A DNA stretch of 64,000 bases from positions 1 to 64,000 of the forward strand of contig NZ_JACNMU010000001.1 in assembly GCF_014901205.1 (NCBI RefSeq), read 5' to 3'. Positions within the stretch are counted from its first letter, which is position 1; each line of letters begins with the position of its first letter. Below are positions 15,845 through 62,124 of this stretch, piece by piece. The notes under the pieces were generated by a model. That model had not been told where the DNA came from, searched no databases, and worked only from the letters and a program-made list of their open reading frames with translations. The DNA comes from Meridianimarinicoccus sp. MJW13 (GTDB lineage: Bacteria; Pseudomonadota; Alphaproteobacteria; Rhodobacterales; Rhodobacteraceae). Position numbers and translations under genes: made by a program.

Positions 15845-15944
15845 ATCAAAAACTGGGAAAACTCTGTAATGATGTGCCTCAGGGTGGATACCTCTGGTCC
15901 TTTTGAGTTCTTTGCTCTGCTCTTTCTGCACATGCGAGGATCGA

Positions 15945-29985: not shown

Positions 29986-32900
29986 TCAGAACCTCTTGGT
30001 GAAGCGCAGCAGGCCACGATGGCTTTGGTAATCGTCACCGACCGAGCCCTGATATTCCACCTTGATGTCCATCCCAGCCGCTGCATTGGCAAACGACAGC
30101 CCAAGCCCGAGTTGGCCCACGACGGGCGCAATCGGCACACTGGTCGAGAAATTGCCCGCTCCGGCAGGTGCCTCAACAAGACGTGCTGTGGTTGACCAGT
30201 CATCCTCGGACGACAGGCTGATGCCCAATGTCGTCGCGGCGCCGATGTCCCAGCCGCCCTGCCGAACCATGCGCGTGCCGATCTCGACCGATGGCGTGAC
30301 CACGATGGCGGTGGCCGACCCGGAAGCAACATCAAGATCGAAGATCCCGGCACCGCTTTCCGTGTAGCCGCCAGCGCGCGTGTGCACGAGATCGATGTCG
30401 AGGATCGGCATGACATAGCCTTGTGGCGTGTCCGCCATGGTATAGGCGGCCCGAATGCGTCCGCTCAGCGTGTTGAGGTCGGACTTGCCCGTTGCCGTGC
30501 CGGTGAACCCCGGCACCGAAACACGCCGTTCCGTGTCGAAACTGCCCCAGCTGCCCCCCAGCGCGCCGGACAGCGTGAAGTTGCCAAAGCGACGCCCCAC
30601 CGACACCGCCAGAAACCCGTTGTCCCCTTCGACGCTCGAAAGACTGTTGTTGCCGGTGTAGTTCGAATGTTCGTAACCCGCGGCGAAGCCCGCGATCCAG
30701 TCTTCATTGACATCGACCTGCGCACCGCCGCTGAAGCCATAGGTCGTGCCGTCATAACCATTGGTGCCGGACTGGTCCGTATAGCCCCGGCTGCCGTCGG
30801 CCCAGTAACAGTTTTCCCCGTCTGCCGAGAGGGACATCCCAAGGCGACGCGCGCAATTCATGGCACCGTCCAGCCGCCCGCGCGTCAGCGGCACCTGCGC
30901 CGCCGCCATCGCCTGGGATGCACCCGGGGTCAGGGATGACAGGGCCTGCGCATAGGCCGTGCCGCCGCCCGAATTGCCGGCCAGCACGTTCATGTTGGCC
31001 AGCAGCGTCCCATAGCTGCGGGACCGATTGTCGAAGATCGCATCAAGGTGCGCCCCGGCGCTGCGTTCGCTGGCGGTCAGGGACGCGGATGCGCTGCCAA
31101 AATGGGTATCGGCGACACTGAAGGCGATCCCATTCCCCACAAGTTCGGCCGCGAAATCAACCGCGGCAGTGCCGATCACCGTCGGCGCCCCGGTCAGCGT
31201 GCCACCCGCCGACACAAGGGTCACCGCGCTGTCCTTCAGAAGCGTCGTCGCATTGATCGCGATCGCCCCGTTCGCCGTGGCATTTCCGGCCACCTGCAGG
31301 CTGTCACTGCCCGCAGGATTGACGAAGTCGATGGTCGCTTCGGTGATGCCTGCGCCGGTTTGAACGAAGTTTCCACCGATGCGAAGCGTGTGACCACCGC
31401 GACCGTTGCCGATGACCAGACGCCCGTTGTTGACCACGTTGGCAGCGTATAGCCCGGCACCGCGCAGGGAATTGCGGCTGTTGTTGGTGATCGTCCCCGC
31501 GACCTCGCCCCGGCTGTCGCGAAGTAGGATATCGCCGATCACGGTTCCATCCTGAACCAGCACATCCGTCGTGCTGCCATTCACCGTGGTTCCGTTGGTG
31601 GTATAGGTGATCGCGGTGCCCGACTGGGCCGTAACCGTGGCACCGTTGGTGATGGTCACGGTATTTCCGGTGCCGGAGGCGACCAGAATGCCGACGCCCG
31701 CGCCGCTGCCGCCGGTCACATCCGCCGACACGTTGACGGCCACGGTGCCGACATCGGTGCCGGTGTTGGCCGCGCCTATGCTTTGCGCGAAAATACCCAC
31801 CGCGTCTGCGCCTGTTGCCGAGATGGCGCCCTGCGTGGTGACGGTCACGTCGCCTGACCCGAATGCAGACCCCATGTCACCGGCCGTGGAGCCTGCGAAA
31901 GTGCCGCTGCCATCGCCGCCAAGGCCACCGCCGCCACCGATGGATTGCGCAATGATCCCGTGTGCCATTGCCCCGGTCGTCGTGATCGTGCCGTCCACGG
32001 TGACGCTGACAGCACCGCCGACACCATCGGCCGATTGAAGAAAGCCGGGTGTGACGTCGAACGGGCCGACCGACAGGTCACCGCCGATGCCACCGCCGCC
32101 GCCGATGGATTGCGCGATGATCCCGTGTCCCCCGGAGCCGCTGGTCGTGATGGAGGTTCCCGACGTCAGGTCAAGGCTGACAGCGCCGCCGTTGCCGCCG
32201 TTGCCGCCAAACCCGCCTACCTGAACGCTCTTGACGCCATCGGCGCTGCCAACACCGCCAATGCCCCCGCCCCCGCCGATGGACTGGGCAACAATGCCGA
32301 AAGACCGGTCGCCAGTGGTCTGGATGGTGGACCCAAACGTCAGCGAAACGTCGCCCGCATCGCCCGCCGAGCCGCCCTGCCCACCGACGATGATGGCCAC
32401 CGAATGACTGCCTGCGTCATCCTGCGATGCGGCGCTGCCGGCCCCGCCAATGCCGCCGCCGCCACCGATGGACTGGGCAATGAGCCCATGCGAGTCGTCG
32501 AGACCAGTTGTGATGTCGATAAAACTGTTGCCCGAGGCCGGAATGGTCACGGTGCCGCCGGTGCCGGAAGTCCCGCCACTGCCGCCGACGCCGCTGCCGA
32601 CTGTCAGCGTGCCCGCAGCCATGGCAGATCCATCACCGCCTTGCCCGCCGCCGCCACCGATGGACTGCAGGACAAGGCCGTTTGCCATGTATCCCAACGT
32701 GATAACCGAGGCGGTGCCGCTGGAAAAACTCGCCGTGACGGGGCCGCCATTGCCCGCCGTCCCGCCGGTTCCGCCTACGGCAATGTTGACCTGCGCGGTC
32801 TCGCCGGTACCCGAGGCCATGGCCGTGCCGCCCGTACCGCCACCGCCGCCGATGGCCTGAACCACGACGCCGTCAGCCCAGTCACCGGTTGTCTGGATCT

Positions 32901-35900
32901 CGCCGTTGTAGTCGAACGTCGCGCCACCGCTGCTGCCGCCGGTGCCGCCCGCACCGCCGACCGCGACGGTCAGGGACACATCGATATCGTCGTCGCTGTC
33001 GTCCTGGGGCGCGAAGGCCGACGGGCCGCTGCCGCTGTCTTCACCGGCCGACCCGAGACTGCCGCCCAAACCGCCGCCACCGCCAATCGACTGGACTAGA
33101 AGGCCGTCCGCATCGACCCCTTTGGTCTGGATCCCGCTGCCCGAGATGCTGTTCACCGTGACCAGGCCGCTGCCCCCGCCCTGACCGCTTTTCATGCCAA
33201 CGTTGACGGTCACCGTCCCGGTGTACGTGTCGTTCTCGTCGTCTTCGACGGCCTCTTCGCCACTGCCCTTGATACTGGCACCGAGCTGAATCTCTCCGCC
33301 CTGCACGGTGCCGCCGCCGCCGCCGATCGATTGCACAACCGCCCCGCGCGACCCCGCGCCCGAGGTCAGGATCATGCCGTCCTGGTAGAGTGTGAGATCG
33401 GCGGTGCCGCCTGTCGCGCCGCTCTCGCCGCTTTCGATGATGCCGCTTGATCCCAGATCGAAGGTCAGCGCCACTGTTGCCGCGCCGCGGATCGTATCGG
33501 TCTTGCTTGACGGGACGCCGCTGTTGCCGCCACCGCCGCCGATGGACTGTACGACCACGCCGTTCGAATAGGCATCGGTGGTGGTGACAACCGACGGGAT
33601 TCCCGCCGGTGTCGAACTGCCAAGGGCCACGCTGGCCGTCCCCCCGTTGCCACCATTGCCGCCCGCACCGCCAAGGGCGCCGTTGATGGTCAGGCCGTAT
33701 TGCTGGGTTGAATCCGGGATTGTCGTCGTCGCGGTCGAGGCATCGCCACCAGACCCGCCGCCACCGCCAATGGACTGGGCCAACACGCCATGCGCACCGG
33801 CACCATAGGTCAGGATCGAGGATTGATCCGACAGGGTGACCGTGGCTGCCTGCCCGTCTCCGCCCGCACCACCGCGACCGCCAAGTGCAAATTGCGCGTT
33901 GAGCGTCACCGTGAAGTCCGGATCAGTCGGGTCGAGCGGCACACCTGTTGTGATGGCGCTGGCCGCGGTCGCACCGCCGGTGCCGCCGCCACCGCCAATG
34001 GACTGCGCAAGAATGCCGATGGAATCGTTCGTCGTGGCCGGGTTGCCGCCGCCGGTCGAGATGGTTGTTTGCTCGGTCAGCGTGACAGCGACATCGCCAC
34101 CGTCGCCGCCGGCGTTGGCAAGCCCGCCGACGGTCAGGCCGATGTTGAGGAAACTGGCAGCCTTGCTGGTACCCGATCCGCCCGACCCGCCGCCGCCGCC
34201 AATGGACTGCGCGACGATCCCCGCCGAGAGCGACTCTTCGGTGGTGATGTTGGAGTTCGACAGCGTCGCTGTGACGGCGCCGCCCGCGCCTGCCGCCGAT
34301 GCGGACCCCCCGATGGCAAACTGGAACGTGTCAAGAATGCCGCCGGTTTGCGCAATGCCCCCGGACCCGCCGCCGCCGCCGATGGATTGCAAAAGCAGAC
34401 CCGCCGAAGAGGTGCTGACCGTGCGCACACGCGCCCCTTCCCCGTTGGTGACCTTGACCGAACCGCCGTTGCCGCCGCCGCCGGACTGGCCGCCGATCGC
34501 AGCGCCCGGAATGCTGAAGATGCCGATGCCGAAGGCGCTGCCGCCCGCACCGCCCCCGCCGCCGATGGATTGGGCCTGAAGCCCCGGTGCAAAGGTGCCG
34601 TTGGTCGACAGGGTTCCGATGGCCGTGACCTCGACCCTGCCGCCGACCCCTGCGCCACCGCCGGCCGACCCGATGGCAAGCACGCCGGTGCTGCTCGATC
34701 CCGAGGTTCCCGCCGCACTGCCGCCCCCGCCACCGACCGATTGCGCCAGAACAGCAACCGCCGCATCGCCGGTTGTGCTGATCGAGCCAATGTTGGAGAC
34801 GGTCGTCGATCCCGCCGCCGTGCTGCTGTCGCTGCCCCCGGTCGCACCGATACTCACCGTCGCGCCAGAGACACCCGCCGACCCGCCACCGCCGACGATG
34901 GATTGGGCAAGTATACCGGTCGCATTGTAGCCTTGGGTCGTGATGGTGCCGTCATTGGACACCGATACGGCACTGCTTGATCCACCCGAGCCACCCGAAC
35001 CGCCCAAGGCGATCACAAGCCCGTCCGCCGCGCCGCCCGCACCCCCGCCACCGCCGATGGACTGGGCAAGGATGCCATTGGCCTGCGCCCCTTTGGTGTT
35101 GATGGTGCCATTGTTGAGGATCGACACCGTATCGCCCGATCCCCCCGTGCCGCCCGAGCCGCCCGAGCCGCGCAGGAAGTTGCTGAAGTCCCCGCCATCG
35201 CCGCCCCCACCGCCGATGGACTGGGCAAAGACGCCAGCCCCGAAATCCAGTCCTGCGCTCATGTCGTTGGTGCCATCGGTGCTGATGGTTCCGCCCCCGA
35301 CGGACACGCTGACAGCGCTGCCGTTCCCGCCCGATCCACCGTCACCCGGATTGCCGGCAAACTCGTTGCCGTTGCTGCCCAGGCCGCCGACATTGGACAG
35401 CGACTGCGCGACGATGCCCCGGCCGCTGTCCTGTCCCGCGGCAGAACTCTGTGCGGTGATGGTCAGAGTCTGAGACGGATTGACGTTGACATAGACGCTG
35501 CCACCGGAGCCGCCGTCGCCACCGGTAGAGTTGTTGGCGTTCGACAAGCCCGCGCCGCCCTGCCCGCCCTTGCTGAGCGCAAAGATGGCGTCGGTGTTGA
35601 TGCCGGTTGCATGGATGGTCGCGCCGACGGAGACATCCACCGTGCCGCCGTTGCCGCCGCTGCCGCCGGTTTTCTGCGATTGGCCGACGCCGCCTTCCGC
35701 GCCCTGGGAATGGGCAAAGATGGCGGCACTGCCATCCGGCGCGGCGCTTGTTCCGGTATCCTCGACAGTGATCGTGTCGATGGCCGTAACGTCGACCTTG
35801 CCGCCCGCACCGCCGGGTCCACCGTTCTCGATGAAGGCCGAGACGCCGACGTTGTAAGCCCAGCCGCCATCGCCGCCGCTGCTCTGGGCGTGGATGCCAC

Positions 35901-36831
35901 GTGTCGCCCCGCTAGCACTGGTGCGCCCGACGACGCTGACCGCCCCCTGGTTGGTAACGGTGACATCGCCGCCCGTACCGCCATGACTGTAGCCGCCGCC
36001 GCCATCGTCCGATTGGTCGTAGGAGTTGTAGTTGTTCGGGCCCGCCCCTCCGACCGAGCGCGCGCGCAGACCGACGACGCTGTCGGCGACCAGCGGGTCG
36101 GTGGTGGTCCCGACGGTGACAGATCCGCTGGTCCAGGAGATATCGCCACCGTCTCCACCATCGCCGCCGTCATAGTCCTGTTTGACGCCCCCGTTCAGGC
36201 GGCCACCCTGCCCGCCGTAGGACCGCAACTCGATGCCCACGAAATCATTGGTGGTAGAGATGTCAGGAGCGCCACCCTGAAGCGTGACGTCGGTGAAGGC
36301 ACTGTTTGGCGCCAGCCGGATCGCGCCGCCGGACCCGCCGGGTGCGCCGTCGCTGTTGTTGTTTTCGTTGTTGTCGGTGCCCGGTCCGCCCTGGGTCCAG
36401 GCCAGAATGCCCGCCGCAGCATCGCCAATGTCAAGGTTGCCGGACACGGTGGTGGTCACGGTTTGCGGTCCGCTGACGGTGATGTCGCCACCATTGCCAC
36501 CGTCCGACGGCCCGCTGTAGGAGCCGTCACCGCCAATCTGCTTGAGGTAAATACCCTGGTAGGCGGTGGTGAAGGGCAGGTTGATGTCGATGTCGGTCGG
36601 GATATCGAAGGTATAGTCCGGCCCCGACTCGCCGTCCGTGGTCTGGCTGCCGCTGGTCCCCGTGAACGTGTAGACGGCCGGTGCGTTCGTGGACGGGAAG
36701 GTGCAGACGCTGCCGACCACTGTGCAGACGTTCTGCGCCTCGGCGTCCGGAACCGGGCCCAGAATCCACCCCGCCGCAAGGGCCATCGCAGAAAGGAATT
36801 GCAGGTATGACAGGTTGCTTGATTTTCTCAT
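29986..36831 (-). CDS. Giant glycine-rich autotransporter (type Va secretion)
   Basis: The 2281-residue protein has a signal peptide ending near EAQ at residue 33, a very long Gly/Ser/Thr/Asn-rich passenger, and a C-terminal autotransporter barrel from about residue 1990 to the terminal Phe (LLRFTKRF). The passenger repeats a 55-80-residue unit built round GVLAQSIGGGGGSGG; I count about 18 copies plus one variant, alternating with beta-strand segments such as VSVSNDGTITTQG. This is the fold expected for a beta-helical adhesin stalk. A non-repeating segment at roughly 1740-1990 links to the barrel. No protease or chaperone partner is adjacent. The start at 36831 lacks a good ribosome-binding site; no better start was found. 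Surface adhesion or aggregation is the likely role. Confidence 0.88.
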   Translation of the reverse strand: MRKSSNLSYLQFLSAMALAAGWILGPVPDAEAQNVCTVVGSVCTFPSTNAPAVYTFTGTSGSQTTDGESGPDYTFDIPTDIDINLPFTTAYQGIYLKQIGGDGSYSGPSDGGNGGDITVSGPQTVTTTVSGNLDIGDAAAGILAWTQGGPGTDNNENNNSDGAPGGSGGAIRLAPNSAFTDVTLQGGAPDISTTNDFVGIELRSYGGQGGRLNGGVKQDYDGGDGGDGGDISWTSGSVTVGTTTDPLVADSVVGLRARSVGGAGPNNYNSYDQSDDGGGGYSHGGTGGDVTVTNQGAVSVVGRTSASGATRGIHAQSSGGDGGWAYNVGVSAFIENGGPGGAGGKVDVTAIDTITVEDTGTSAAPDGSAAIFAHSQGAEGGVGQSQKTGGSGGNGGTVDVSVGATIHATGINTDAIFALSKGGQGGAGLSNANNSTGGDGGSGGSVYVNVNPSQTLTITAQSSAAGQDSGRGIVAQSLSNVGGLGSNGNEFAGNPGDGGSGGNGSAVSVSVGGGTISTDGTNDMSAGLDFGAGVFAQSIGGGGGDGGDFSNFLRGSGGSGGTGGSGDTVSILNNGTINTKGAQANGILAQSIGGGGGAGGAADGLVIALGGSGGSGGSSSAVSVSNDGTITTQGYNATGILAQSIVGGGGSAGVSGATVSIGATGGSDSSTAAGSTTVSNIGSISTTGDAAVAVLAQSVGGGGGSAAGTSGSSSTGVLAIGSAGGGAGVGGRVEVTAIGTLSTNGTFAPGLQAQSIGGGGGAGGSAFGIGIFSIPGAAIGGQSGGGGNGGSVKVTNGEGARVRTVSTSSAGLLLQSIGGGGGSGGIAQTGGILDTFQFAIGGSASAAGAGGAVTATLSNSNITTEESLSAGIVAQSIGGGGGSGGSGTSKAASFLNIGLTVGGLANAGGDGGDVAVTLTEQTTISTGGGNPATTNDSIGILAQSIGGGGGTGGATAASAITTGVPLDPTDPDFTVTLNAQFALGGRGGAGGDGQAATVTLSDQSSILTYGAGAHGVLAQSIGGGGGSGGDASTATTTIPDSTQQYGLTINGALGGAGGNGGNGGTASVALGSSTPAGIPSVVTTTDAYSNGVVVQSIGGGGGNSGVPSSKTDTIRGAATVALTFDLGSSGIIESGESGATGGTADLTLYQDGMILTSGAGSRGAVVQSIGGGGGTVQGGEIQLGASIKGSGEEAVEDDENDTYTGTVTVNVGMKSGQGGGSGLVTVNSISGSGIQTKGVDADGLLVQSIGGGGGLGGSLGSAGEDSGSGPSAFAPQDDSDDDIDVSLTVAVGGAGGTGGSSGGATFDYNGEIQTTGDWADGVVVQAIGGGGGTGGTAMASGTGETAQVNIAVGGTGGTAGNGGPVTASFSSGTASVITLGYMANGLVLQSIGGGGGQGGDGSAMAAGTLTVGSGVGGSGGTSGTGGTVTIPASGNSFIDITTGLDDSHGLIAQSIGGGGGIGGAGSAASQDDAGSHSVAIIVGGQGGSAGDAGDVSLTFGSTIQTTGDRSFGIVAQSIGGGGGIGGVGSADGVKSVQVGGFGGNGGNGGAVSLDLTSGTSITTSGSGGHGIIAQSIGGGGGIGGDLSVGPFDVTPGFLQSADGVGGAVSVTVDGTITTTGAMAHGIIAQSIGGGGGLGGDGSGTFAGSTAGDMGSAFGSGDVTVTTQGAISATGADAVGIFAQSIGAANTGTDVGTVAVNVSADVTGGSGAGVGILVASGTGNTVTITNGATVTAQSGTAITYTTNGTTVNGSTTDVLVQDGTVIGDILLRDSRGEVAGTITNNSRNSLRGAGLYAANVVNNGRLVIGNGRGGHTLRIGGNFVQTGAGITEATIDFVNPAGSDSLQVAGNATANGAIAINATTLLKDSAVTLVSAGGTLTGAPTVIGTAAVDFAAELVGNGIAFSVADTHFGSASASLTASERSAGAHLDAIFDNRSRSYGTLLANMNVLAGNSGGGTAYAQALSSLTPGASQAMAAAQVPLTRGRLDGAMNCARRLGMSLSADGENCYWADGSRGYTDQSGTNGYDGTTYGFSGGAQVDVNEDWIAGFAAGYEHSNYTGNNSLSSVEGDNGFLAVSVGRRFGNFTLSGALGGSWGSFDTERRVSVPGFTGTATGKSDLNTLSGRIRAAYTMADTPQGYVMPILDIDLVHTRAGGYTESGAGIFDLDVASGSATAIVVTPSVEIGTRMVRQGGWDIGAATTLGISLSSEDDWSTTARLVEAPAGAGNFSTSVPIAPVVGQLGLGLSFANAAAGMDIKVEYQGSVGDDYQSHRGLLRFTKRF
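31900..35230 (-). repeat. Repeats encoding the QSIGGGGG passenger motif
   Basis: On the plus strand the element appears as near copies of CCGCCGCCGATGGACTGGGC, recurring about every 150-240 bases from 31930 to 35220. Each marks one GGGGG-containing turn of the autotransporter passenger. Spacers differ in length and sequence, so this is protein-level repetition, not a CRISPR or an insertion-sequence array. Confidence 0.75.
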
Positions 36832-51646: not shown

Positions 51647-54034
51647 CTATTCTTCCCCTTCGCCGGATTCGGACGACCCCGCACCCAGCAACGCGATCAT
51701 GCGCTCAAGCTCCGCGGTCGCAATCTCGCCAATGGACGTCCCTTTCAGTTCGCCCATCGCAACCATGGCGACTTCCATGGGGAACCCGGCGTCGACCAGC
51801 GCAGCCAGATCCTCGCCATTGCCGTCCTCGGCGGTCAGGTCCGTCAGGATGTCGATATAGGCCAGAATTGCGCCCTGCCGTGCTGGCGAAACAAGGCCCT
51901 TTGACGGAAGGTCGGCCAACAGGGTCTCTGTGATCTGTCCGATGTAGTCCTGCAAAGACATGAACGCGTCGCCATGCAATTTCCGCTGCATGTAAACCAT
52001 CCTGACGCGCTCGCGGTTCAGGACCTCGCTCATGATCTCCGCCGCCGCGCTTTCGACAGTGATTAGCCCGCCGATGGGTCGGAAGCGGGCCAGCAACCCC
52101 GGTTCGGCGAAGGCATCGAGACCTAGAATGGCTTCCCCTGCAAGAAACTCAACCGCCTGCCGTTGCTCCTGCGGGTCGACATAGGCAAACGGCCTGTCAC
52201 CACCAAGCGTCTGAGAAACGCCGCCGATCAGTTTGCCGACACTTCCCGCGATCCCGACGTACCGGCTGAGCGCCTCGTCGTAGGTGACAACCAGCAGCGC
52301 CTCTGGATTGCGCGCCTCTTCAACAGCCGTAGGCAGCGCCGCCAGACTGGCGTGTAACGCATCGATCCCGGCGCGCGTCGCCGATATCCGGTCCGCCCCG
52401 ATATTCTCGGTCTGAACCCGAGGATCGAACCGGGCAAGATATTCTTCGCCAAGCTCGCCGGCGCCCCACCTGAGTTCCGGGCGATCCTCCGCCTCTGCTG
52501 CGATGGCCGCAAGTTCCTCTGCGTTCAGTCCGGTGGAATAGCCCCATCGGATGGCGTGCCGGTCGTAGGGTCCGATGATTGGAATGAACCGAGACACGCC
52601 ATCATCCGGGGCCGCCACGTAGTTGAAGCGCCCATAGGCCATGATCGAAGACGTGCTGCCGTTCCGCGCAGTGAATTCAGGGTCTTTCAGCTGTGCCGTT
52701 GTCCAGGCCGTCGAGGCGCGATGATTGTGCCGCAGGCCAAGCGTATGGCCGACCTCATGGGACACTACATAGCGCAGGATGCGCCCTTGCAACGCCTCCG
52801 GCAGCGGTAATTTGGCCGCGGCGGGGTCGGTCCGATGCATCAGCATATAGTAGTAGCGGCTGAAAAGGTTCACCACGTCGGGCCACACCAGGATATGGGC
52901 GGAAAGAATTTCGCCGGAACGCGGGTCGTGAATGTTCGGACCCATGGCGTTCTGCACCGGTTGCGCAACCCAGCGGATCACGCTGTGACGGACATCTTCC
53001 GGGGACCAGTCAGGATCCTCTTCATGGCTTGGCGCATCGCGGGCAATGATCGCGTTGGTGAAGCCCGCGGCCTCGAATGCGGTCTGCCAGTCCTCGACCG
53101 CCTGGCGAATGTAGGGACGCCACCGTTCGGGGATTTCACGCGAGAGATAGAAAACGATGGGTTCAACCGGGTCCGACGGACGCGGCGCATCCGGTTCGGC
53201 GTGTTCAAGACGAAAGCGAAGGGCGGCACGGTCGCGCGATTGCACATCGCCGAACGCGCTTTCATAAACCAGATACTCGGTGAAGAAGAAGCCGACCCGG
53301 TCGTCATGGGCGCGACGCTCCATCGGGGTTTCCGGCAGCACGGCAATCGAATGCGCCGTTTCCACGGAAACCGGCTGTGCCAGCCCGGACTGATCGGTCG
53401 CTTCGAAGGTCAGTTGCGACCGGACAAAGAGGTTGTCGGGAAAAACCGACGCCTCGACAACGTAGGACCGGTCAGGGTCGTTCGGCCCGGGCGCGAGACC
53501 GGTGGAGGCCAGCAGCGCGGCGACCGAATAGCCGACGATATCGCCCCCGAACGCATCGCGCAAATCCACAAGTACGGCCCCGGTGTCGTCTTCCGCAAGG
53601 ATCGGGAAATCGACGATGATGGGACCAAGATTGGCGCGCTCCACGGCGAGGTTCACCGGGCGCAGCTTGTCGCGACCGCCGGTGTAATGCGGATCACCCG
53701 AGACCTTTTCGAACGCGGTGCCAGACAGGGACCGCACCATGACGCGATCCGGGCGCCGTTCCAACTGGATCAGTCGTGCGCCCAGGGCGTTTCCGCCCAA
53801 AGCCACCGCATCGGTGGGATACCCGGACACTTCGGCGTACCAGATCAGTCTGCGTTCAAACATGTCGCGCGGGATCGCAAGCAACAGCTCGCCGTCTTTC
53901 TGGTACAGGTCGAATGCCCCTGACCGCAGCTCGGCACCTGCAACGCGATCCTGGAAAGTCTCTGTTTGCGCCGTGGCATCTGTCGTCGAAAGCGGGATCG
54001 CAAGGGCAATGCAAAGGGCAAATGCGAGGCGCAT
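51647..54034 (-). CDS. Exported zinc metalloprotease, DUF4953/DUF5117 type
   Basis: The 795-residue protein has a signal peptide (residues 1-23, ending ATAQ) and the layout of the family: an N-terminal DUF5118/5117-like beta domain (YQKDGELLLAIPRDMFERRLIWYAEV), then the catalytic domain with the extended zincin motif HEVGHTLGLRHNHRAS near residue 425 and the Met-turn-like SIMAYGRFNYVAAPDD. The C-terminal third is helical. It would degrade proteins in the periplasm or outside. It is monocistronic as far as can be seen, with a gap of 221 bases from the patatin gene upstream. Confidence 0.85.
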   Translation of the reverse strand: MRLAFALCIALAIPLSTTDATAQTETFQDRVAGAELRSGAFDLYQKDGELLLAIPRDMFERRLIWYAEVSGYPTDAVALGGNALGARLIQLERRPDRVMVRSLSGTAFEKVSGDPHYTGGRDKLRPVNLAVERANLGPIIVDFPILAEDDTGAVLVDLRDAFGGDIVGYSVAALLASTGLAPGPNDPDRSYVVEASVFPDNLFVRSQLTFEATDQSGLAQPVSVETAHSIAVLPETPMERRAHDDRVGFFFTEYLVYESAFGDVQSRDRAALRFRLEHAEPDAPRPSDPVEPIVFYLSREIPERWRPYIRQAVEDWQTAFEAAGFTNAIIARDAPSHEEDPDWSPEDVRHSVIRWVAQPVQNAMGPNIHDPRSGEILSAHILVWPDVVNLFSRYYYMLMHRTDPAAAKLPLPEALQGRILRYVVSHEVGHTLGLRHNHRASTAWTTAQLKDPEFTARNGSTSSIMAYGRFNYVAAPDDGVSRFIPIIGPYDRHAIRWGYSTGLNAEELAAIAAEAEDRPELRWGAGELGEEYLARFDPRVQTENIGADRISATRAGIDALHASLAALPTAVEEARNPEALLVVTYDEALSRYVGIAGSVGKLIGGVSQTLGGDRPFAYVDPQEQRQAVEFLAGEAILGLDAFAEPGLLARFRPIGGLITVESAAAEIMSEVLNRERVRMVYMQRKLHGDAFMSLQDYIGQITETLLADLPSKGLVSPARQGAILAYIDILTDLTAEDGNGEDLAALVDAGFPMEVAMVAMGELKGTSIGEIATAELERMIALLGAGSSESGEGEE

Positions 54035-54255
54035 GGCGGTTCTCCTTGTCGACGGTCTTTTGGGCAGGCACGCGCCGCCCGGTTGTCGTGTATGTGTTCG
54101 AAGTTCCAGAATACGTAGACTGAACGGGGCATTGGAGAAAGCGCGATGCCCACGAATTCACCGGAAACAGAGAGGATGGGAGCGCCCCTGAAGCGTGACA
54201 TAGATGAAGACACGGTTTGGCGGCCGCTGGATCGCGCCGCCGCTTCCGTGCCGTG

Positions 54256-55050
54256 TCAGGCCAGCGCCCGTTCCAGCTTGCGCTTCATGGCGTCCTTGTC
54301 GGCCGTCGCCACCTCAAGGATCTCGGCGGCCTTGAGGAATGCCAATGCCGGGAAGGCGCTGGCCTTCGGAGCGATCAGAACCGCCCCGGGCCGATCTTCA
54401 AGCTGCTGCCTCAGCATCCGGTGCATCATGATCCGCATCGCCCCGACTGCGGCCTCCATCGGGCCAGGCACCTCGCTGCTGTCCTGCGCTGTAACACTGG
54501 CCACATCCACCGCGAGCACCAGATCCGCATCCGGCAGCGCATCGAGCGGAAGATTGTTGGTCACGCCCCCGTCCATAAGCACCCGCCCGTCCAGAAGCGT
54601 GGGCCGAAACACGCCCGGAATCGCGATCGACGCCGCCAGCGCGGGTTTGAGAAGCCCCTCGCGCAGAAACACCGTTTCGCGCGCGTGGAAATCCGTCGCA
54701 ACTGCCGTGAAGGGGATCCCCAGCATGTCGAACCGGTCGGGCATGGTCGGTGGCAAGGCAATCTGAACGGCGTGATGCGCGTTGAGAGATCCCGGCATGA
54801 TCGGGAACCGGCCCGGTCTGGACGCCAGGAACCGCTTCATCTCGCGGGCTGGATTGTCGGCAATGCTCAGGATCCACTCCCGAATGTCCCGGCCCGACAT
54901 GCCCGCGGAATACGCCGCACCAATCATTGCCCCCATCGAGGTGCCCGATATTGCCATCGGGTGAAGCCCCAACTCGTCCACGACCTCCAGCACCGGCACA
55001 TGCCCGATCCCGGCAGCGCCGCCCCCGCTGAGGGCAATCGCAAGCCTCAT
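54256..55050 (-). CDS. Patatin-like phospholipase, RssA/NTE type
   Basis: The 264-residue enzyme has the oxyanion loop GGGAAG (9-14), the nucleophile elbow GTSMG with Ser38, and the second dyad residue Asp160 in LMDGGVTNNLP. These are the complete patatin catalytic elements, so lipid acyl-hydrolase activity is expected. It has no signal peptide when started at 55050. The open frame reaches 55233, with another ATG at 55125; 55050 is chosen because family similarity begins there, although its ribosome-binding site is poor. It may act on membrane phospholipids. Confidence 0.85.
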   Translation of the reverse strand: MRLAIALSGGGAAGIGHVPVLEVVDELGLHPMAISGTSMGAMIGAAYSAGMSGRDIREWILSIADNPAREMKRFLASRPGRFPIMPGSLNAHHAVQIALPPTMPDRFDMLGIPFTAVATDFHARETVFLREGLLKPALAASIAIPGVFRPTLLDGRVLMDGGVTNNLPLDALPDADLVLAVDVASVTAQDSSEVPGPMEAAVGAMRIMMHRMLRQQLEDRPGAVLIAPKASAFPALAFLKAAEILEVATADKDAMKRKLERALA

Positions 55051-55313
55051 GGCCGCAGACCGCGCCTTGGATGCCTGCCCGTGGGCGTCCCGATAAATCC
55101 CATGCCCTGAAAATCCCCTGCGCATTTCGTTGACGCAACCTAGAGCGGTCGCAGGCCGGTCTTCAATGGCGTGCGGCGCAAACACTGGCCATGGCGGCCT
55201 ATTTAGGTGACCGGCGGCCAGCGGCAGGCCCACCCATCAAAGACGTCCCGCACCGCCCAGCGGCTGGAACCGAAACCGGCAGAAGCGGCCTGTCTTCCCC
55301 GCGATCCCTTGTG

Positions 55314-56675
55314 TCAGCTTTCGCAGTTGGCCGCCTTGATGGCTTCGACGGCCCGCGCACCATCGGCGCGGCTCATGTACCGGGTCCAGCCGAGAAAATA
55401 GACCAGACCGTCCTCGGCGCGATTGACATATTCGACCACCGCCTGACCCTCGGAATCAAGGATCACAAGCCGCCCCTGCGAGGTTTCCTCTACCATCACG
55501 AAGCCGCCCGGCAGACGTTCGAACAGCCCGCCAAACAGGGCCTTCACCTCGAGTTCCGCCAGCGCATCGTCTTGCGGGCCACTGACGCTGTCGGTCTGGA
55601 AATCGTAATAGCTGATCTTGTTGGCATCGCGCACATAGGCGCGGCCCGAGGTGTTGATCACGTCGTTGTTGAAGATGGCAATGGTGTGGTCGTCGACGAT
55701 ATCGACATCATGCTGTGCCCGCCACGGCCCCCGACGCATCCAGATGATCTCGTCGGTTTCGGGGCGGAATTGCAGCACCATCGAGGAGTCCCGGAAGCTG
55801 AGAAACACATCGCCGCGTTTCCAATAGGGACCGTCTTCGAAAACCGGCTGCACATCGTTCAGGTGCATCGGGTTGTTGTTGTATTCGCTCGAGTTGAAAA
55901 CAAGGTACTCGTATCCGTGTTCGATCAGGACATCACCGATGGACCGACTGTACAGGACCTCTCCGTCTTCGCTGATCTGCGCGATGGCCACATTTCCGAA
56001 GTTGTCATTGACCGTGTAGTCAGCTTCCAGCGGCAGCTTGTCGGGCAGCCAGAAATGCCCGTCCGGTCCACGCTCAAGGGCGTGATGATAGTAGCCGCGC
56101 TTGCTGCGCCAGACCAGATCGCCGCAGGGGGTCAGGCGCACCAGCGGAGAGTGATGGTCCTTGATCAGCAGATCGCCGTTTTCGAGCAAATAGGGATGGA
56201 TGGCGCGAAAGCGCTTGGGGATATGCGCCGTTGCGATGTCGTTCTCGATTTCCGGGGTCCAGCCGGCGAAGAACTCTTCCGGGCGGGTCACCAGCCGGTG
56301 TTCGGTCGCGCCAGACTTCAGGTCGACCAGTTCCACCACATGACGTTCGACCGCACGGTCATAGCGGCTGAGCAGGATGAACCCGTCAGGACGCTCCTCA
56401 GGGGTAGATTGGTCAAAGTTCCAGCCCGAGAGACCGGGAAAGCGATGCGGATCCCGGACCGACATCCAGTTGTCGTCCTTTGCACTCAATGCGTCCTGTA
56501 GGTCTGCGGGGGCCGCAGCAAGCTTGTAGGCAAAGGTTCCGAACGCCCCGAAGCGACTGTGGCCCAGCGTCTCGTTGCGGACCGCGGCGCCGAACAGGAT
56601 CGCGCCGATCGCGGCAAGGAGAAGCAGGAGGAGAACAAACCAAAGCTCAATCTTCTTGAAGAAAAATCGTTCCAT
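55314..56675 (-). CDS. Membrane-anchored arylsulfotransferase-like (ASST) protein
   Basis: The 453-residue protein has an N-terminal membrane anchor (LWFVLLLLLLAAIGAILFG, about 10-30) and a periplasmic beta-propeller-like domain. The arylsulfotransferase-family repeats include KRGYYHHALERGPDGHFWLP, MHLNDVQPVFEDGPYWKRGD, VFLSFRDSSMVLQF and WRAQHDVDIVDDHTIAIFNN. ASST enzymes move sulfate between phenolic compounds through a His intermediate, but this branch may have another activity. It is divergent from the NRPS gene across 294 bases, so a functional link, for example modification of the NRPS product, is conceivable but not shown. Confidence 0.75.
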   Translation of the reverse strand: MERFFFKKIELWFVLLLLLLAAIGAILFGAAVRNETLGHSRFGAFGTFAYKLAAAPADLQDALSAKDDNWMSVRDPHRFPGLSGWNFDQSTPEERPDGFILLSRYDRAVERHVVELVDLKSGATEHRLVTRPEEFFAGWTPEIENDIATAHIPKRFRAIHPYLLENGDLLIKDHHSPLVRLTPCGDLVWRSKRGYYHHALERGPDGHFWLPDKLPLEADYTVNDNFGNVAIAQISEDGEVLYSRSIGDVLIEHGYEYLVFNSSEYNNNPMHLNDVQPVFEDGPYWKRGDVFLSFRDSSMVLQFRPETDEIIWMRRGPWRAQHDVDIVDDHTIAIFNNDVINTSGRAYVRDANKISYYDFQTDSVSGPQDDALAELEVKALFGGLFERLPGGFVMVEETSQGRLVILDSEGQAVVEYVNRAEDGLVYFLGWTRYMSRADGARAVEAIKAANCES

Positions 56676-56969: not shown

Positions 56970-58436
56970 ATGTCCGGTGCTGCTCAGCGCATTGCTGCGT
57001 TCAATTTCAGAACCGTCACGGCCACGCCCAACCAGACCCGCTATGTGAGGTCCGAACTCGCCGAGGCGGGGTCGTACATGATTTCCATGGGCCATCTCGT
57101 GCAGGGCCAACTGGACGAGACAAGGTTTCGGGCAGCGGCAACGCAACTGGTTCTGCGTCATGACGCGTTGCGCACCTCTTTTGACATCATTCAAGGGGCT
57201 GTTCAGGCGCGTATTTCCGAAGAACCGCAGTTTCAGTACCACAGCTGCAGGCTTGCAGATGACAGCCTCTCTGCGTTCCGGTCCTGGGCATTGCCGCTGG
57301 TTTTCGAAGACGTGGATCCAAGGGTGCCAGGATCGCTGATCCGTGTTCTCGTCGCCAACCTTGGCGAGCAATGGCGGTTTACCATTGCGGCCCATCACGC
57401 CACCACCGATGGATTTTCTCGCGGCGTGATGACACGGGAATTGCTCAAGCTCTATGCCGGGGAGGATCTGCCGTCGGCGCCCTCCTACTACGACATCGAT
57501 ATCAAAGCGGCCCAGGACCCGTCCGAGCTGCGCGCTGTCAATGATCTGGTGACGGCGCTACCACAACCCGTGCGCCTGATCGGAGACGGGTTCGAAACCG
57601 GCGAAGAATCCTCGGCAGGCCATTTCGTCGAGCGGTCCTTTGACGATCTGTCTCGCTCGGTGCGGATGACCGCCAAGTCGATCGGCACAACGAAATTCGG
57701 TCTGTTCTCGGCCGTCTACGCGTTGGGGCTGCACGGCTATTCCGGTGAAACACAGGTGTCGAGCTTTTTTCAGACCTCAGGGCGCAAGGTGTTCGGGGCT
57801 TCCAATTCCATCGTCGGGCCCTATTCCAACACCCTGCCCCTTGATCTGAGCTTTGATCCGGGCCGTGCGTTTGGCAGCTTCGCACGGGATCTTGCCAAGC
57901 AGGTGGGAAACACCGTCGCGCTGGAGCGTGCGCCGATCCTTGATGCCGTTCTGGCCGCCCAGAAAGGACCGAGCGTTTCGATCAACATGTTCCCACCGGC
58001 GGCGCGCATCAAGGCTGGCGCGCTGGAAGTCGGCCCGCGCGAGTTTCTGGATCGCCGGACGGAATTCGATTTGAACCTTGTCTGGGCCGAGGATGGCGGC
58101 GTTCTGACCGCGCGGGCGTTCTATGACAAGGCGCATTTGTCCGACACCCGCGCGCGGCTTTTTCTGGATCAGCAAGCCCGATTGCTGCGCGCCGTTCTGG
58201 CGGATCCTGCGGCCTCCTGCCGGGACATTCTCAAGCAAGCCCGCTCCGGTGCCGAAGCATTGCTGCCGCAAGGCACAACGGACCCCACCCCCAGGCATCG
58301 CCTGCACAACGCGTTCTTGGAATGGGCAGCGCGGACCCCGGATGCCGTGGCACTTGTCACTTCGAAGGACCGCCTGACCTACAAGGCATTGGCAGACCGT
58401 CTTCGGGCCAGAGTGGCAGGCCTGCAGGACGCATGA
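56970..58436 (+). CDS. NRPS first part: condensation domain and start of adenylation domain, ended by an in-frame TGA
   Basis: The 488-residue product contains a condensation domain (about 25-440) with the active-site HHATTDG (His143, Asp147) and YSNTLPLDLSF-like later motifs. From about residue 446, LHNAFLEWAARTPDAVALVT begins the adenylation domain, which is cut at TGA 58434-58436 after only 40 residues. The same frame continues without a break into AGPGNCVVIFAQRDPALVEA, the normal next segment of the domain. The TGA is therefore a point nonsense mutation, sequencing error or recoding site in a 1356-residue synthetase, not a natural gene end. There is no ribosome-binding site right after it. 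Confidence 0.8.
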   Translation: MSGAAQRIAAFNFRTVTATPNQTRYVRSELAEAGSYMISMGHLVQGQLDETRFRAAATQLVLRHDALRTSFDIIQGAVQARISEEPQFQYHSCRLADDSLSAFRSWALPLVFEDVDPRVPGSLIRVLVANLGEQWRFTIAAHHATTDGFSRGVMTRELLKLYAGEDLPSAPSYYDIDIKAAQDPSELRAVNDLVTALPQPVRLIGDGFETGEESSAGHFVERSFDDLSRSVRMTAKSIGTTKFGLFSAVYALGLHGYSGETQVSSFFQTSGRKVFGASNSIVGPYSNTLPLDLSFDPGRAFGSFARDLAKQVGNTVALERAPILDAVLAAQKGPSVSINMFPPAARIKAGALEVGPREFLDRRTEFDLNLVWAEDGGVLTARAFYDKAHLSDTRARLFLDQQARLLRAVLADPAASCRDILKQARSGAEALLPQGTTDPTPRHRLHNAFLEWAARTPDAVALVTSKDRLTYKALADRLRARVAGLQDA

Positions 58437-58454
58437 GCCGGGCCCGGCAATTGC

Positions 58455-61040
58455 GTGGTGATATTCGCCCAACGCGATCCCGCATTGGTCGAAGCCCTGT
58501 TGGCGGTATCCGCCAGCGGGGCGTCCTTTGCGATCATTGATGCCAGTTATCCGCCGGCGCGCATCTCCCAAATGTTCGACCGGCTTGAGGCGCGCTTCGT
58601 CATCGAGGCCGGGGCGGAATTGCCGCCGGACCTGCGCAGCGGGCGGACGCTGGTTGCGTGTGGCGATCCAGCCAGGGCCAGGGTGATCGACGGACCACCC
58701 CGAGACGCGGCCTGCCACATGTTCACATCGGGCACGACGGGTCAGCCGAAACTGATCAGCCATCCCGATCAGACTGTTCAGAGATTTGTCGCCTGGCAGG
58801 CCGCGACACTGGCGCTGGACACCCCCGTTGTGACCATGATGATGGCGGGCCTGGCCCATGATCCAACCCTGCGCGACGTGCTTCTGCCCCTGTCGCATGG
58901 TGGCACCGTGGCGGTTCCGACACCCTGCGAAATGGCAACGCCCGAGCGGCTGCGCGCACTCATGGCCACGGCACAATGCAACGTCGTGCGGTTCAGCCCT
59001 GCCTCCGCAAGGCTGCTGACAACGGGCGCTTCCCGGGACCACCGCTTCGACCATCTGTGCGCCATTTTCTGGGGCGGAGAGCGCCTGCCCCGGTCCGTGG
59101 TCGCGGAATGGCAGTCGCGCGTGCCCAAAGCCCGCCAGTTCAACGTGTTCGGCACCACCGAAACGCCACAAGCCTTCCTGATCCACGAGATCCAGCGAAA
59201 CGCGCCGCCCGCCGGGGAAATTCCCTTGGGGCGAACACTGCCATGGACAGGGGCGGCGGTTTTGGCAGAAGACGCAACACCGGTGGCGATCGGCGAGGTC
59301 GGCGAACTGACGGCCATGCTGGCCGACCCGATCATCGGGGCCAACGACAAGCTGTCAGAGACAAAGGGCGCGGGCGCGCTGCGCCATTTCACCGGCGATT
59401 TGGCCTACATGATGCCGGGCGGCGAGATCACCTTTGCCGGACGACGGGACGGTCAGGTCAAGATCAACGGGTTCCGGGTGGAACTGGGCGAGATCGAGGC
59501 GTTTGCCGAGGGGATTTCCGGGGTGAAGCAGGCGACGGCCCTGGTTGCGGACGATCGCATCCTTCTGTTCGTGCTGGCGCCCGGCACCTCCGTCGCCGAA
59601 GGGACCGTGAAGGCGCGACTGGCCCAAAACGTGCCCGCCTACATGGTGCCTGCGCAGATCTTGGTGCTTGATGGATTCCCGGCCACGCCCAATGGCAAGG
59701 TCGACAAGCCTGCGCTGGTGGCTTTGGCGGCAAAAGCGGCCAGAGCCGAGACTGGCAAGCCCGATGCCCAGCCGAAAGGTGCGGAAGAGATCGCGATTTC
59801 GAAGCTGCTGGCCCGAAACACAAACCGCACCTTTGTCGCACGCAACCAGTCGCTGGCCGATCTGGGCATCGACAGCATTGGCACTATCGAGGCGCGACTG
59901 GATCTGGAAGGCGCGGGCTTCACCCTGCCAGACGGCTGGCAATGGCTGACCGTTTCGGAACTGGCCGCCCAACAACCGGCGGCCAAATCCAGCGGGTCGG
60001 CGTCGAAACGCTGGATCGCCATGGGCCGGATGGACAGTTTCATCCTGATCCGGGCCCTTGCCATTGCGGTGATCGTGGCCTTCCACACCGGGTTGAAGCT
60101 GCCGGTCGGAGCCTCGATCATCCTGTTTGTTCTGACCGGCTTTGCCTTCGTACGCATGCAGTTGCCCGCCATTCTGCGGGACGACCATGCCGGACGGATT
60201 CTGACGCTGATGGCGCGGCTCATAGTGCCCATGGCCGCGATTTCGCTGGTCTACTATCTGAAACACACGGTGATGGACAACGACGCCCATCTGTCCACGT
60301 TGCTGCCCTATCGCAATCTGGCACCCTTTTTCGAATTCATGGTGCTTGGCCGGGATCACTACCAGATCCAGTTGGAATTTCTGTGGTTCCTGCACAGCTA
60401 TTTGCAGATGTTCCTGGTGATCAGTGTCTTGCTGGCCGTGCCCCGCATCCGTGCACTGCTGCGGCGGGATCTGTGGCGCAGCCTGGTCGGGTTGTTCTGC
60501 ATCTCTGAATTGGCAGGGGTGGGCACCATCGCGGCGCTGGCCCAGTGGACCGGCGACTTCGAAAAGACCTCGTTCTACCTGCTCTCATGGCCGACCACGA
60601 CGATGCCGTTCCTGGTCATTGGCGCCGTGGTTGCCGCTGCCGACACGCAGCGCCGGGTGGTGGCCAGCTTCGCCTTCGTGCTGCTGCATTTTGCGGTCAG
60701 CGCCCTGTTCTACAGATCTCACGCCGAAGGCTGGTGGGTCATTGCACTGTTGTTCTGCGTGCTGATGCCTCAGATCACACTGCCGCGGATCGTAACCAGC
60801 GTCGTGATGCTCTTGGCGGCACATTCGCTGATCATCTACCTGTCCCACCATGCGACCGGATCGGTGTTCTCGGACATCTTCGGACGTGGCGAGTTGCGAG
60901 GGGCCAGCGTGGTATTCCAACTGGCTTTCGGTGTGCTGCTGGGCATTGCCCTGCGCCCGCTGCTGACGCGGTTGGGCATCTATCGGCTGGCCGACATCCC
61001 GCTGTCCTTCCAAAGCAAGTTGGCCAAGAAACAAGTATGA
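58455..61040 (+). CDS. NRPS second part: adenylation domain, carrier protein and membrane acyltransferase-3 domain
   Basis: As drawn from GTG 58455 the product is 861 residues, but it is probably the rest of the preceding gene. Adenylation motifs run in order: A3 FTSGTTGQPK, AHDPTLRD, A5 NVFGTTE, A7 TGDLAYM, A8 GRRDGQVKINGFRVELGEIE and A10 NGKVDK. A carrier domain follows with the phosphopantetheine Ser474 in LGIDSIGTIEA. From about 525 to the end there are roughly ten hydrophobic helices that begin LIRALAIAVIVAFHTG, the Arg/His start of acyltransferase-3 membrane proteins. No thioesterase or reductase domain is present, so the membrane domain is the candidate release or transfer module. A reductase-like gene follows after 13 bases. 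Confidence 0.8.
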   Translation: MVIFAQRDPALVEALLAVSASGASFAIIDASYPPARISQMFDRLEARFVIEAGAELPPDLRSGRTLVACGDPARARVIDGPPRDAACHMFTSGTTGQPKLISHPDQTVQRFVAWQAATLALDTPVVTMMMAGLAHDPTLRDVLLPLSHGGTVAVPTPCEMATPERLRALMATAQCNVVRFSPASARLLTTGASRDHRFDHLCAIFWGGERLPRSVVAEWQSRVPKARQFNVFGTTETPQAFLIHEIQRNAPPAGEIPLGRTLPWTGAAVLAEDATPVAIGEVGELTAMLADPIIGANDKLSETKGAGALRHFTGDLAYMMPGGEITFAGRRDGQVKINGFRVELGEIEAFAEGISGVKQATALVADDRILLFVLAPGTSVAEGTVKARLAQNVPAYMVPAQILVLDGFPATPNGKVDKPALVALAAKAARAETGKPDAQPKGAEEIAISKLLARNTNRTFVARNQSLADLGIDSIGTIEARLDLEGAGFTLPDGWQWLTVSELAAQQPAAKSSGSASKRWIAMGRMDSFILIRALAIAVIVAFHTGLKLPVGASIILFVLTGFAFVRMQLPAILRDDHAGRILTLMARLIVPMAAISLVYYLKHTVMDNDAHLSTLLPYRNLAPFFEFMVLGRDHYQIQLEFLWFLHSYLQMFLVISVLLAVPRIRALLRRDLWRSLVGLFCISELAGVGTIAALAQWTGDFEKTSFYLLSWPTTTMPFLVIGAVVAAADTQRRVVASFAFVLLHFAVSALFYRSHAEGWWVIALLFCVLMPQITLPRIVTSVVMLLAAHSLIIYLSHHATGSVFSDIFGRGELRGASVVFQLAFGVLLGIALRPLLTRLGIYRLADIPLSFQSKLAKKQV

Positions 61041-61053
61041 AGAGGAGCCAGAC

Positions 61054-62124
61054 ATGTCCAAGATGAACATCCTGATGCTGGGGGCGGCCTATGGGCTGCT
61101 GCCCGCGGTTCGCATCCTGTTGGCCGGCCATCGTGTGACTGTGGTGTGCCGCGCCTCGGAACAATCCAGTATTGCCAGCGACGGCGCGCAGATCTCGTTC
61201 CTGAAGCGGGACGGCACGCCCAACACCACGATGTCAGCGCCGGGCACCATCGGAACGGTCAAGGACAACGCGCTGTGCCTTGCCGGGGTCGATGTGGATC
61301 TGTCGCCCTTCGACATGGTGTTCCTTGCCATGAGCGAGCCGCAATACGCGTCCGAGGATGTGGCCGGGCTTGTACGCCGGATCGGCGCATCCGGCCTGCC
61401 GGTTGTATCGCTGATGAATGCCCTGCCGCCGCCCTTCCTGGCGCGCCTGAACGCATTCGACACCGTACAGCTGCGCCCGGCCTACACCGCGTGGTCGGTG
61501 TGGCAGCATCTTGACCCGGCGCTGATCTCGGCCGCCAGTCCCGACGCCCAGGCCGTGCGCATGGATCCCGAAAGGACCAACGAACTGTCGGTCACGCTGG
61601 CGTCGAATTTCAAGGTGGCTCCATTCGAACAGGCTGCACATCAAGAACTGTTGGAAACGCTCTCGCGCGATGTGTCTGCCTATCGTCAGGATGGTCGACC
61701 GCTGCCAGTGCGCCTGCTTGCGCATAACGCACTGCATGTTCCGATGGCCAAATGGCCCATGCTGATGGCCGGCAACTGCCGTTGTGTCGGACCGGATGGA
61801 AGCATCGTGTCCATTGCCGAGGCCGTTGGCGCGGATCCCGAAGCCAGCCAGAGGATATATGACCAGACGCTGGAGGTCGTGCGCGCTGCCGGTGCGGGTG
61901 ACGGCGATATCGTTCCGTTTTCGCACTATGCACGTGCCGCGCGTGGCCTGGTCCGGCCTTCCTCTTTCGCCCGTGCCATCGCAGCGGGTGCTCCGAACAT
62001 CGAACGCGTTGACAAGATCATCCAGCTCAGTGGCCGTGCACTGGGTCAGACCATACCCGAAATCGATCGGATCGTCGCGCAGGTGGATGTCCTGATGGCC
62101 CGCCCCCTGGCAGCCAGCGCCTAG
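61054..62124 (+). CDS. Ketopantoate-reductase-like NAD(P)-dependent oxidoreductase
   Basis: The 356-residue protein has an N-terminal Rossmann fold (NILMLGAAYGLLPAVRILLAGHRVTVVCRAS) and the FDMVFLAMSEPQ and VVSLMNALPPPFL segments of the ApbA/PanE superfamily. The usual GxGxxG loop is GAAYG, so cofactor binding may be atypical. The C-terminal half is helical, as in 6-phosphogluconate-dehydrogenase-like folds. GAGGAG precedes the ATG, 13 bases after the NRPS stop, so it is co-transcribed and may reduce or condense the NRPS product or supply its precursor. True ketopantoate reductase activity is not assumed. Confidence 0.7.
   Translation: MSKMNILMLGAAYGLLPAVRILLAGHRVTVVCRASEQSSIASDGAQISFLKRDGTPNTTMSAPGTIGTVKDNALCLAGVDVDLSPFDMVFLAMSEPQYASEDVAGLVRRIGASGLPVVSLMNALPPPFLARLNAFDTVQLRPAYTAWSVWQHLDPALISAASPDAQAVRMDPERTNELSVTLASNFKVAPFEQAAHQELLETLSRDVSAYRQDGRPLPVRLLAHNALHVPMAKWPMLMAGNCRCVGPDGSIVSIAEAVGADPEASQRIYDQTLEVVRAAGAGDGDIVPFSHYARAARGLVRPSSFARAIAAGAPNIERVDKIIQLSGRALGQTIPEIDRIVAQVDVLMARPLAASA

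Follow-up and report, generated by a model that had tools for sequence, protein, structure and literature searches.

The Dlt system, which d-alanylates teichoic acids, comprises the ligase DltA, the carrier DltC and the membrane acyltransferase DltB (PMC12148441, PMC3783018). DltB receives d-Ala from DltC, its carrier, and not from acyl-coenzyme A (acyl-CoA) (PMC12148441). We analyzed a locus that recalls this system in a 64,000-nucleotide stretch of DNA from Meridianimarinicoccus sp. MJW13, referred to below as the window. The plus-strand frame at positions 56970 to 61040 encodes, in this order, a condensation (C) domain, an adenylation (A) domain, a peptidyl carrier protein (PCP) and an acyltransferase-3 (AT3) membrane domain, and is interrupted by an in-frame TGA codon. 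As in Dlt, an adenylation enzyme would load a carrier, and a membrane acyltransferase would use the carrier thioester and move the group across the membrane. Unlike the fusion, Dlt is made of separate proteins without a C domain, involves DltX and DltD, and relies on a transferase of the MBOAT family rather than of the AT3/TmAT type. In outline, the fusion may be viewed as the Dlt logic in a single polypeptide with a different membrane enzyme. The DltB precedent indicates that acyl transfer from a carrier exists in nature, although with another membrane enzyme.

ε-Poly-lysine synthetase (Pls) and its kin also combine an A domain and a carrier with a membrane part and lack a thioesterase. Pls contains no C domain and has six transmembrane segments and three tandem acetyltransferase-related domains (PMC8117764). 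The fusion differs by the presence of a C domain and by an AT3 domain after the carrier in place of these three domains. The original prediction, made from the letters of the window, had proposed this parallel with a different terminal domain. With respect to AT3 enzymes such as OafB, OatA and OacB, the fusion is distinguished by C, A and PCP domains located N-terminal to AT3. The two commonest AT3 fusions listed in a review (PMC9558356) are with a C-terminal SGNH domain and with an alanine racemase. In that review, non-ribosomal, nonribosomal, AMP-binding and acyl carrier are nowhere mentioned. Likewise, an eLife paper on AT3 does not mention non-ribosomal peptide synthetases (NRPSs), nor does the TmAT paper mention NRPS, non-ribosomal or carrier protein. 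No NRPS-AT3 fusion was found among the papers listed by searches of the open-licence literature, viewed mostly as titles and the beginnings of abstracts; subscription papers and domain-architecture databases lay outside this search.

Conservation of the C-A-PCP-AT3 order

The frame contains the following features.

56970 to 58436, plus strand: open reading frame (ORF) 1, 488 residues, encoding the C domain and the first ~36 residues of the A domain and ending at the in-frame TGA
57012 to 58229, plus strand: condensation domain (PF00668), with the HHxxxDG motif as HHATTDG
58320 to 59699, plus strand: adenylation domain (PF00501 and PF13193), with the TGA near its start and the A4 motif HDPTLRD
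58434 to 58436, plus strand: in-frame TGA within the A domain
58455 to 61040, plus strand: ORF 2, 861 residues with a GTG start, encoding the remainder of the A domain, the PCP and AT3
59835 to 59969, plus strand: carrier protein, with the Ser codon of the LGIDS motif at 59874 to 59876
60036 to 60947, plus strand: AT3/TmAT membrane acyltransferase domain, with the Arg and His codons of its R-X10-H motif at 60051 and 60084

A Pfam scan of the frame identified the C domain (PF00668, 109.5 bits), which matched generic C domains, and the A domain, as two pieces of PF00501 followed by PF13193. The core motifs FTSGTTGQPK, TGD, GRRDGQ and NGK are present in this A domain, which the TGA cuts in the window copy. 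They belong to the core motifs of A domains and include the catalytic Lys near the domain end. The PCP match was weak (PF00550, 16.7 bits, below its cut-off); the LGIDS motif provides the Ser that would carry phosphopantetheine. The region following the carrier matched AT3/TmAT as a single domain, with a score marginally below the cut-off of 31 bits in hmmscan (PF01757, E value of 7.7e-7, 28.9 bits). The same stretch scored 30.1 bits in a six-frame search of its own genome and 32.9 bits when neighboring matches were included. Its predicted structure has the conserved TmAT membrane fold, as judged by the overall fold rather than by a helix count against the ten-helix core. Hydropathy analysis of the helices yielded fragmented segments and was set aside. 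No thioesterase family matched the frame, nor did MBOAT at an E value of 0.1. The original prediction had placed all four domains in one reading frame, with a Ser-bearing carrier, an AT3-type membrane part and no thioesterase. These assignments held, including the domain order and the shared frame, except that the frame is not open, since the TGA at 58434 to 58436 had been read through.

Relatives were sought at several levels. A family-level search of 295 genomes returned matches in 7, which were full length in the genome of the window and in two others (G092 and G217) and limited to the A or A-PCP region in the remaining 4. A search with the AT3 part in 390 genomes of the order returned the own genome, G092 and a third genome (G373). 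Genomes of 84,980 species were then scanned with a pair of short PCP-AT3 patterns, which are narrow and may let further loci escape; this yielded 9 loci. They belong to Tropicimonas marinistellae, Tropicimonas sediminicola, Albibacillus kandeliae, Silicimonas algicola, two uncultured Roseobacter, and Gemmobacter, Rhodobacteraceae and Henriciella metagenome-assembled genomes. These loci, which include those of G092 and G217, and the G373 locus (L017) gave 10 relatives and, with the window copy, 11 NRPS-type proteins. Nine of the 10 relatives are complete, each as a single uninterrupted ORF, the tenth (L022) being cut by the end of its contig. Pfam was run on three relatives, the domain order of the others being deduced from the alignment and motifs. 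C, A and carrier domains were detected in all three, the carrier weakly in two. AT3 scored above the cut-off in two of them (32.3 and 37.2 bits) and was not listed at an E value of 0.1 in the third, in which the AT3 region nonetheless aligns with that of the other relatives. The HHxxxDG motif is kept in all 10 proteins covering the C-domain region, and the A4 motif (HDPxxRD) in 11/11. The domain order does not result from chance, because nine complete relatives carry it unbroken in other genomes. The C-A-PCP-AT3 design is genuine, rare and conserved in relatives. The original prediction would have fallen if the membrane part were always a separate protein in homologues; the nine complete relatives are fused, and a split pair occurs in another genome (G235; see below).

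The ten-position specificity code of the window A domain, which the original prediction had proposed to compare with known codes, was read by eye from an alignment with LgrA as D P R R I W V Q A K, and the fourth position is R or H in 11/11 proteins. Codes starting with D-P-R occur in A domains whose target is the side-chain carboxyl of aminoadipate or glutamate; a literature search for codes of this type gave no result, and the code provides a weak lead on the substrate. The score against the aminoadipate reductase family TIGR03443 (154.3 bits) is far under its cut-off (1030).

The acyl donor of the AT3 domain

We propose, with about equal weight for and against, that the fusion acts as a single-module peptide synthetase anchored in the membrane, its AT3/TmAT domain replacing the thioesterase and taking the thioester from the fused PCP. 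The A domain, which has the expected motifs, would activate an acid (most likely an amino acid) and load the PCP, and the C domain would probably couple an acyl or aminoacyl partner to the loaded unit. AT3 would then take the thioester straight from the phosphopantetheine arm of the PCP, rather than from CoA, via a pore in the membrane, and pass the acyl group to an extracytoplasmic acceptor, for example a glycan or a lipid head group. The observations behind this proposal are the domain order, the conserved C, A, PCP and R-X10-H motifs, the predicted fold, the loss of donor motifs and the association of this AT3 branch with carriers. Of these, only the last two suggest the carrier thioester as the donor.

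The R-X10-H motif of transmembrane helix 1 (TMH1) and the RxxR motif of TMH3 are called absolutely and highly conserved, respectively, in the AT3 literature. R-X10-H is kept in 11/11 NRPS-type proteins, in which R1028, H1039, G1057 (the Gly of TMH2) and Y1290 are invariant, as is G1218, a TMH6-like Gly placed by eye. In contrast, RxxR near the Pro of TMH3 occurs in 0/11 of them versus 25/28 controls, a loose R..R being present at an upstream position in 3/11. The three donor-binding features, namely, the Asp of DxxR, the Phe of TMH2 and RxxR, are all absent in 11/11, unlike in OafB, OatA, OacB and members of the TmAT superfamily including HGSNAT. The 28 controls were drawn from 36 PF01757 matches over the cut-off besides the window, eight of which were set aside (seven without a retrieved locus and one fragment, L062), as were matches below the cut-off. 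Among the latter, L032, from the own genome, has neither R-X10-H nor RxxR. The motifs were counted by text pattern rather than by structure, with anchors picked by hydrophobicity.

These residues bear on two other explanations. The membrane domain might be a catalytically dead AT3 retained to anchor the protein in the membrane or to export the product, as its divergence, its Pfam score around the cut-off and the loss of RxxR could suggest. We consider this improbable, an anchor having no need for the five residues R1028, H1039, G1057, G1218 and Y1290 that are invariant in 11/11 proteins. Alternatively, AT3 might be a tailoring enzyme that uses ordinary acyl-CoA to acylate what the NRPS makes, or some other molecule, the fusion providing proximity only. 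The AT3 mechanisms described in the available literature employ acyl-CoA, which weighs against a carrier-bound donor; furthermore, TMH1 R-X10-H is intact, and fused enzymes are not required to share a substrate. Nonetheless, this explanation appears unlikely, although less so than a dead domain, in view of the absence of the three donor-binding features and in view of the proteins described below, in which AT3 is the sole visible candidate for accepting the acyl group of the carrier.

Profile searches of 385 class-level and 398 phylum-level genomes returned matches in 5 and 9 genomes (the own genome included), respectively. They revealed ten proteins composed of A, carrier and AT3 domains without a C domain (L064 to L067 and L070 to L075), all from the same class. 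These do not amount to ten independent cases, since L072 and L073, as well as L074 and L075, are near copies. One genome (G626) turns up in both sets. Like the NRPS type, they have the same AT3 branch, the same carrier-AT3 junction and mostly lost donor motifs; unlike it, they have no C domain, and the A domain is acyl-ligase-like in the three scanned against NCBIfam (for L064, TIGR03098 with 551.5 bits for a cut-off of 592.35). In five proteins examined with Pfam, AMP-binding was found in all five, AT3 above the cut-off in four (25.7 bits in the fifth) and a carrier match in four, above the cut-off in two; the carrier motif LGGDS is present in 10/10. The motif counts among the ten were 0 for the Asp of DxxR, 1 for FxxxxG, 1 for RxxR and 10 for [SAT]xxxY. 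In G235, a 655-residue ORF (L077:6295-8262) overlaps by 8 bases a 338-residue AT3 ORF (8255-9271). The larger product has an AMP-binding domain and, by eye, the carrier motif AGGDS, with no Pfam carrier match at an E value of 0.01; LGMDS in this protein was rejected as a chance match within the A domain.

A tree of the AT3 domains separated the 11 NRPS-type, 10 A-PCP-AT3 and 1 split sequences from the 28 controls by a branch supported at 100/98, which defines one side of a branch rather than a clade, the tree being unrooted with ten long-branched rows. The NRPS type formed its own group (100/100). Because the family had been gathered with PCP plus AT3 profiles, an AT3-only profile was run as a check on the 398 genomes. 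Among the best five candidates scored per genome, it returned the same nine genomes, and every AT3 had a carrier within its own gene or the one next to it. Since eight of these genomes are represented by query rows and the ninth (G310) by a near copy of one, this search shows only that nothing else appeared.

Two proteins weigh against transfer from the carrier: the A-PCP-AT3 protein L071 retains RxxR and FxxxxG, and the split AT3 of G235 (L076) retains DxxR and RxxR. The latter weakens the simple rule that a carrier donor entails motif loss. It is conceivable, with the balance slightly on the negative side, that a branch of AT3/TmAT enzymes has exchanged free CoA for a covalently attached carrier as its donor and so become self-loading. 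In the branch seen here, an NRPS module would feed the transferase, the chain being released across the membrane without a thioesterase. The original idea that the chain is handed from the carrier to the membrane acyltransferase is in part supported by the motif loss and carrier linkage; it is better supported than before yet unproven, the transfer itself having been deduced. If correct, it would represent a new termination of non-ribosomal synthesis, in which membrane transfer replaces thioesterase release, and AT3 enzymes could supply the cell surface with groups other than those on CoA, for instance amino acids. Transfer from the carrier predicts a PCP-bound donor, independent of CoA, and intact relatives exist in Tropicimonas and Silicimonas isolates.

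With respect to the acceptor, comparison of the 11 NRPS-type loci revealed no glycan genes common to them. Such genes lie near the split pair, whose neighbors encode a Bac_transf sugar transferase, a Polysacc_synt protein and a glycosyltransferase, and near one A-PCP-AT3 member, L064 (L082), where an MBOAT protein is found along with a glycosyltransferase and a sugar transferase. The overlapping genes of G235, close to polysaccharide genes, represent a naturally divided, two-protein counterpart of the fusion.

The interrupted window copy and its surroundings

The TGA at 58434 to 58436 closes ORF 1 ~36 residues into the A domain, and ORF 2 resumes in the same frame. At this position, the alignment has a Gly codon in 8/9 covering relatives and an Asp codon in 1/9. 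Unless the TGA reflects a sequencing error, the window gene probably has no function; a recent nonsense mutation and such an error are both possible origins. We slightly favor the view that this copy is a pseudogene in decay, giving no product, within an otherwise normal family, which would be compatible with transfer from the carrier in the family as a whole. In addition to the TGA itself, the six other genomes of the genus (one of them 74% complete) have no match at an E value of 1e-40, and SelA was not detected in the genome at an E value of 0.001. A selenocysteine at the TGA was rejected on the basis of this last result and of the Gly or Asp of the relatives. Against decay, no further stop or evident frameshift was seen in the 4-kb frame, and identity to a near relative (L018) is comparable before and after the TGA (62% for C, 59% for A, 53% for PCP and 49% for AT3); a base-calling error is possible. 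The two ORFs might also form a split enzyme, with reinitiation at the GTG at 58455, as both are open and in frame with 18 bases from the stop to the GTG. This is very improbable, as the cut falls within the A domain, no good Shine-Dalgarno sequence was seen by eye ahead of the GTG, and none of the nine covering relatives is split at this site.

No promoter or terminator signal above chance was detected around the locus, and the G+C profile revealed no clear island. The gene located immediately downstream is the following.

61054 to 62124, plus strand: predicted ketopantoate-reductase-fold enzyme, 356 residues, with a clear fold match

This gene adjoins the synthetase in 5/11 loci; the window product had no PDB sequence match at an E value of 1, and the L018 copy no NCBIfam match at an E value of 1e-10. 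Divergent genes upstream (51647 to 56675, minus strand), which had no counterpart in the other ten loci, encode proteins that are DUF4953/DUF5117 metalloprotease-like, patatin-like and arylsulfotransferase-like. Elsewhere in the genome, a second NRPS locus (L034:5184-16084, contig C20 of G000) encodes C-A-PCP followed by C-A-PCP-thioesterase, an ordinary thioesterase end, together with an AMP-binding protein and an acyl-CoA dehydrogenase-like protein. Despite these two NRPS loci, the sole PF01648 phosphopantetheinyl transferase detected in the genome is AcpS-like (L035:513-947).

Two large ORFs lie farther upstream in the window. The product of the first (2,281 residues; 29986 to 36831, minus strand) had no Pfam match at an E value of 1e-4. 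The second (3,444 residues; 15903 to 26237) contains RTX nonapeptide repeats, with cadherin/Ig-like domains near its end, and resembles a large secreted protein.

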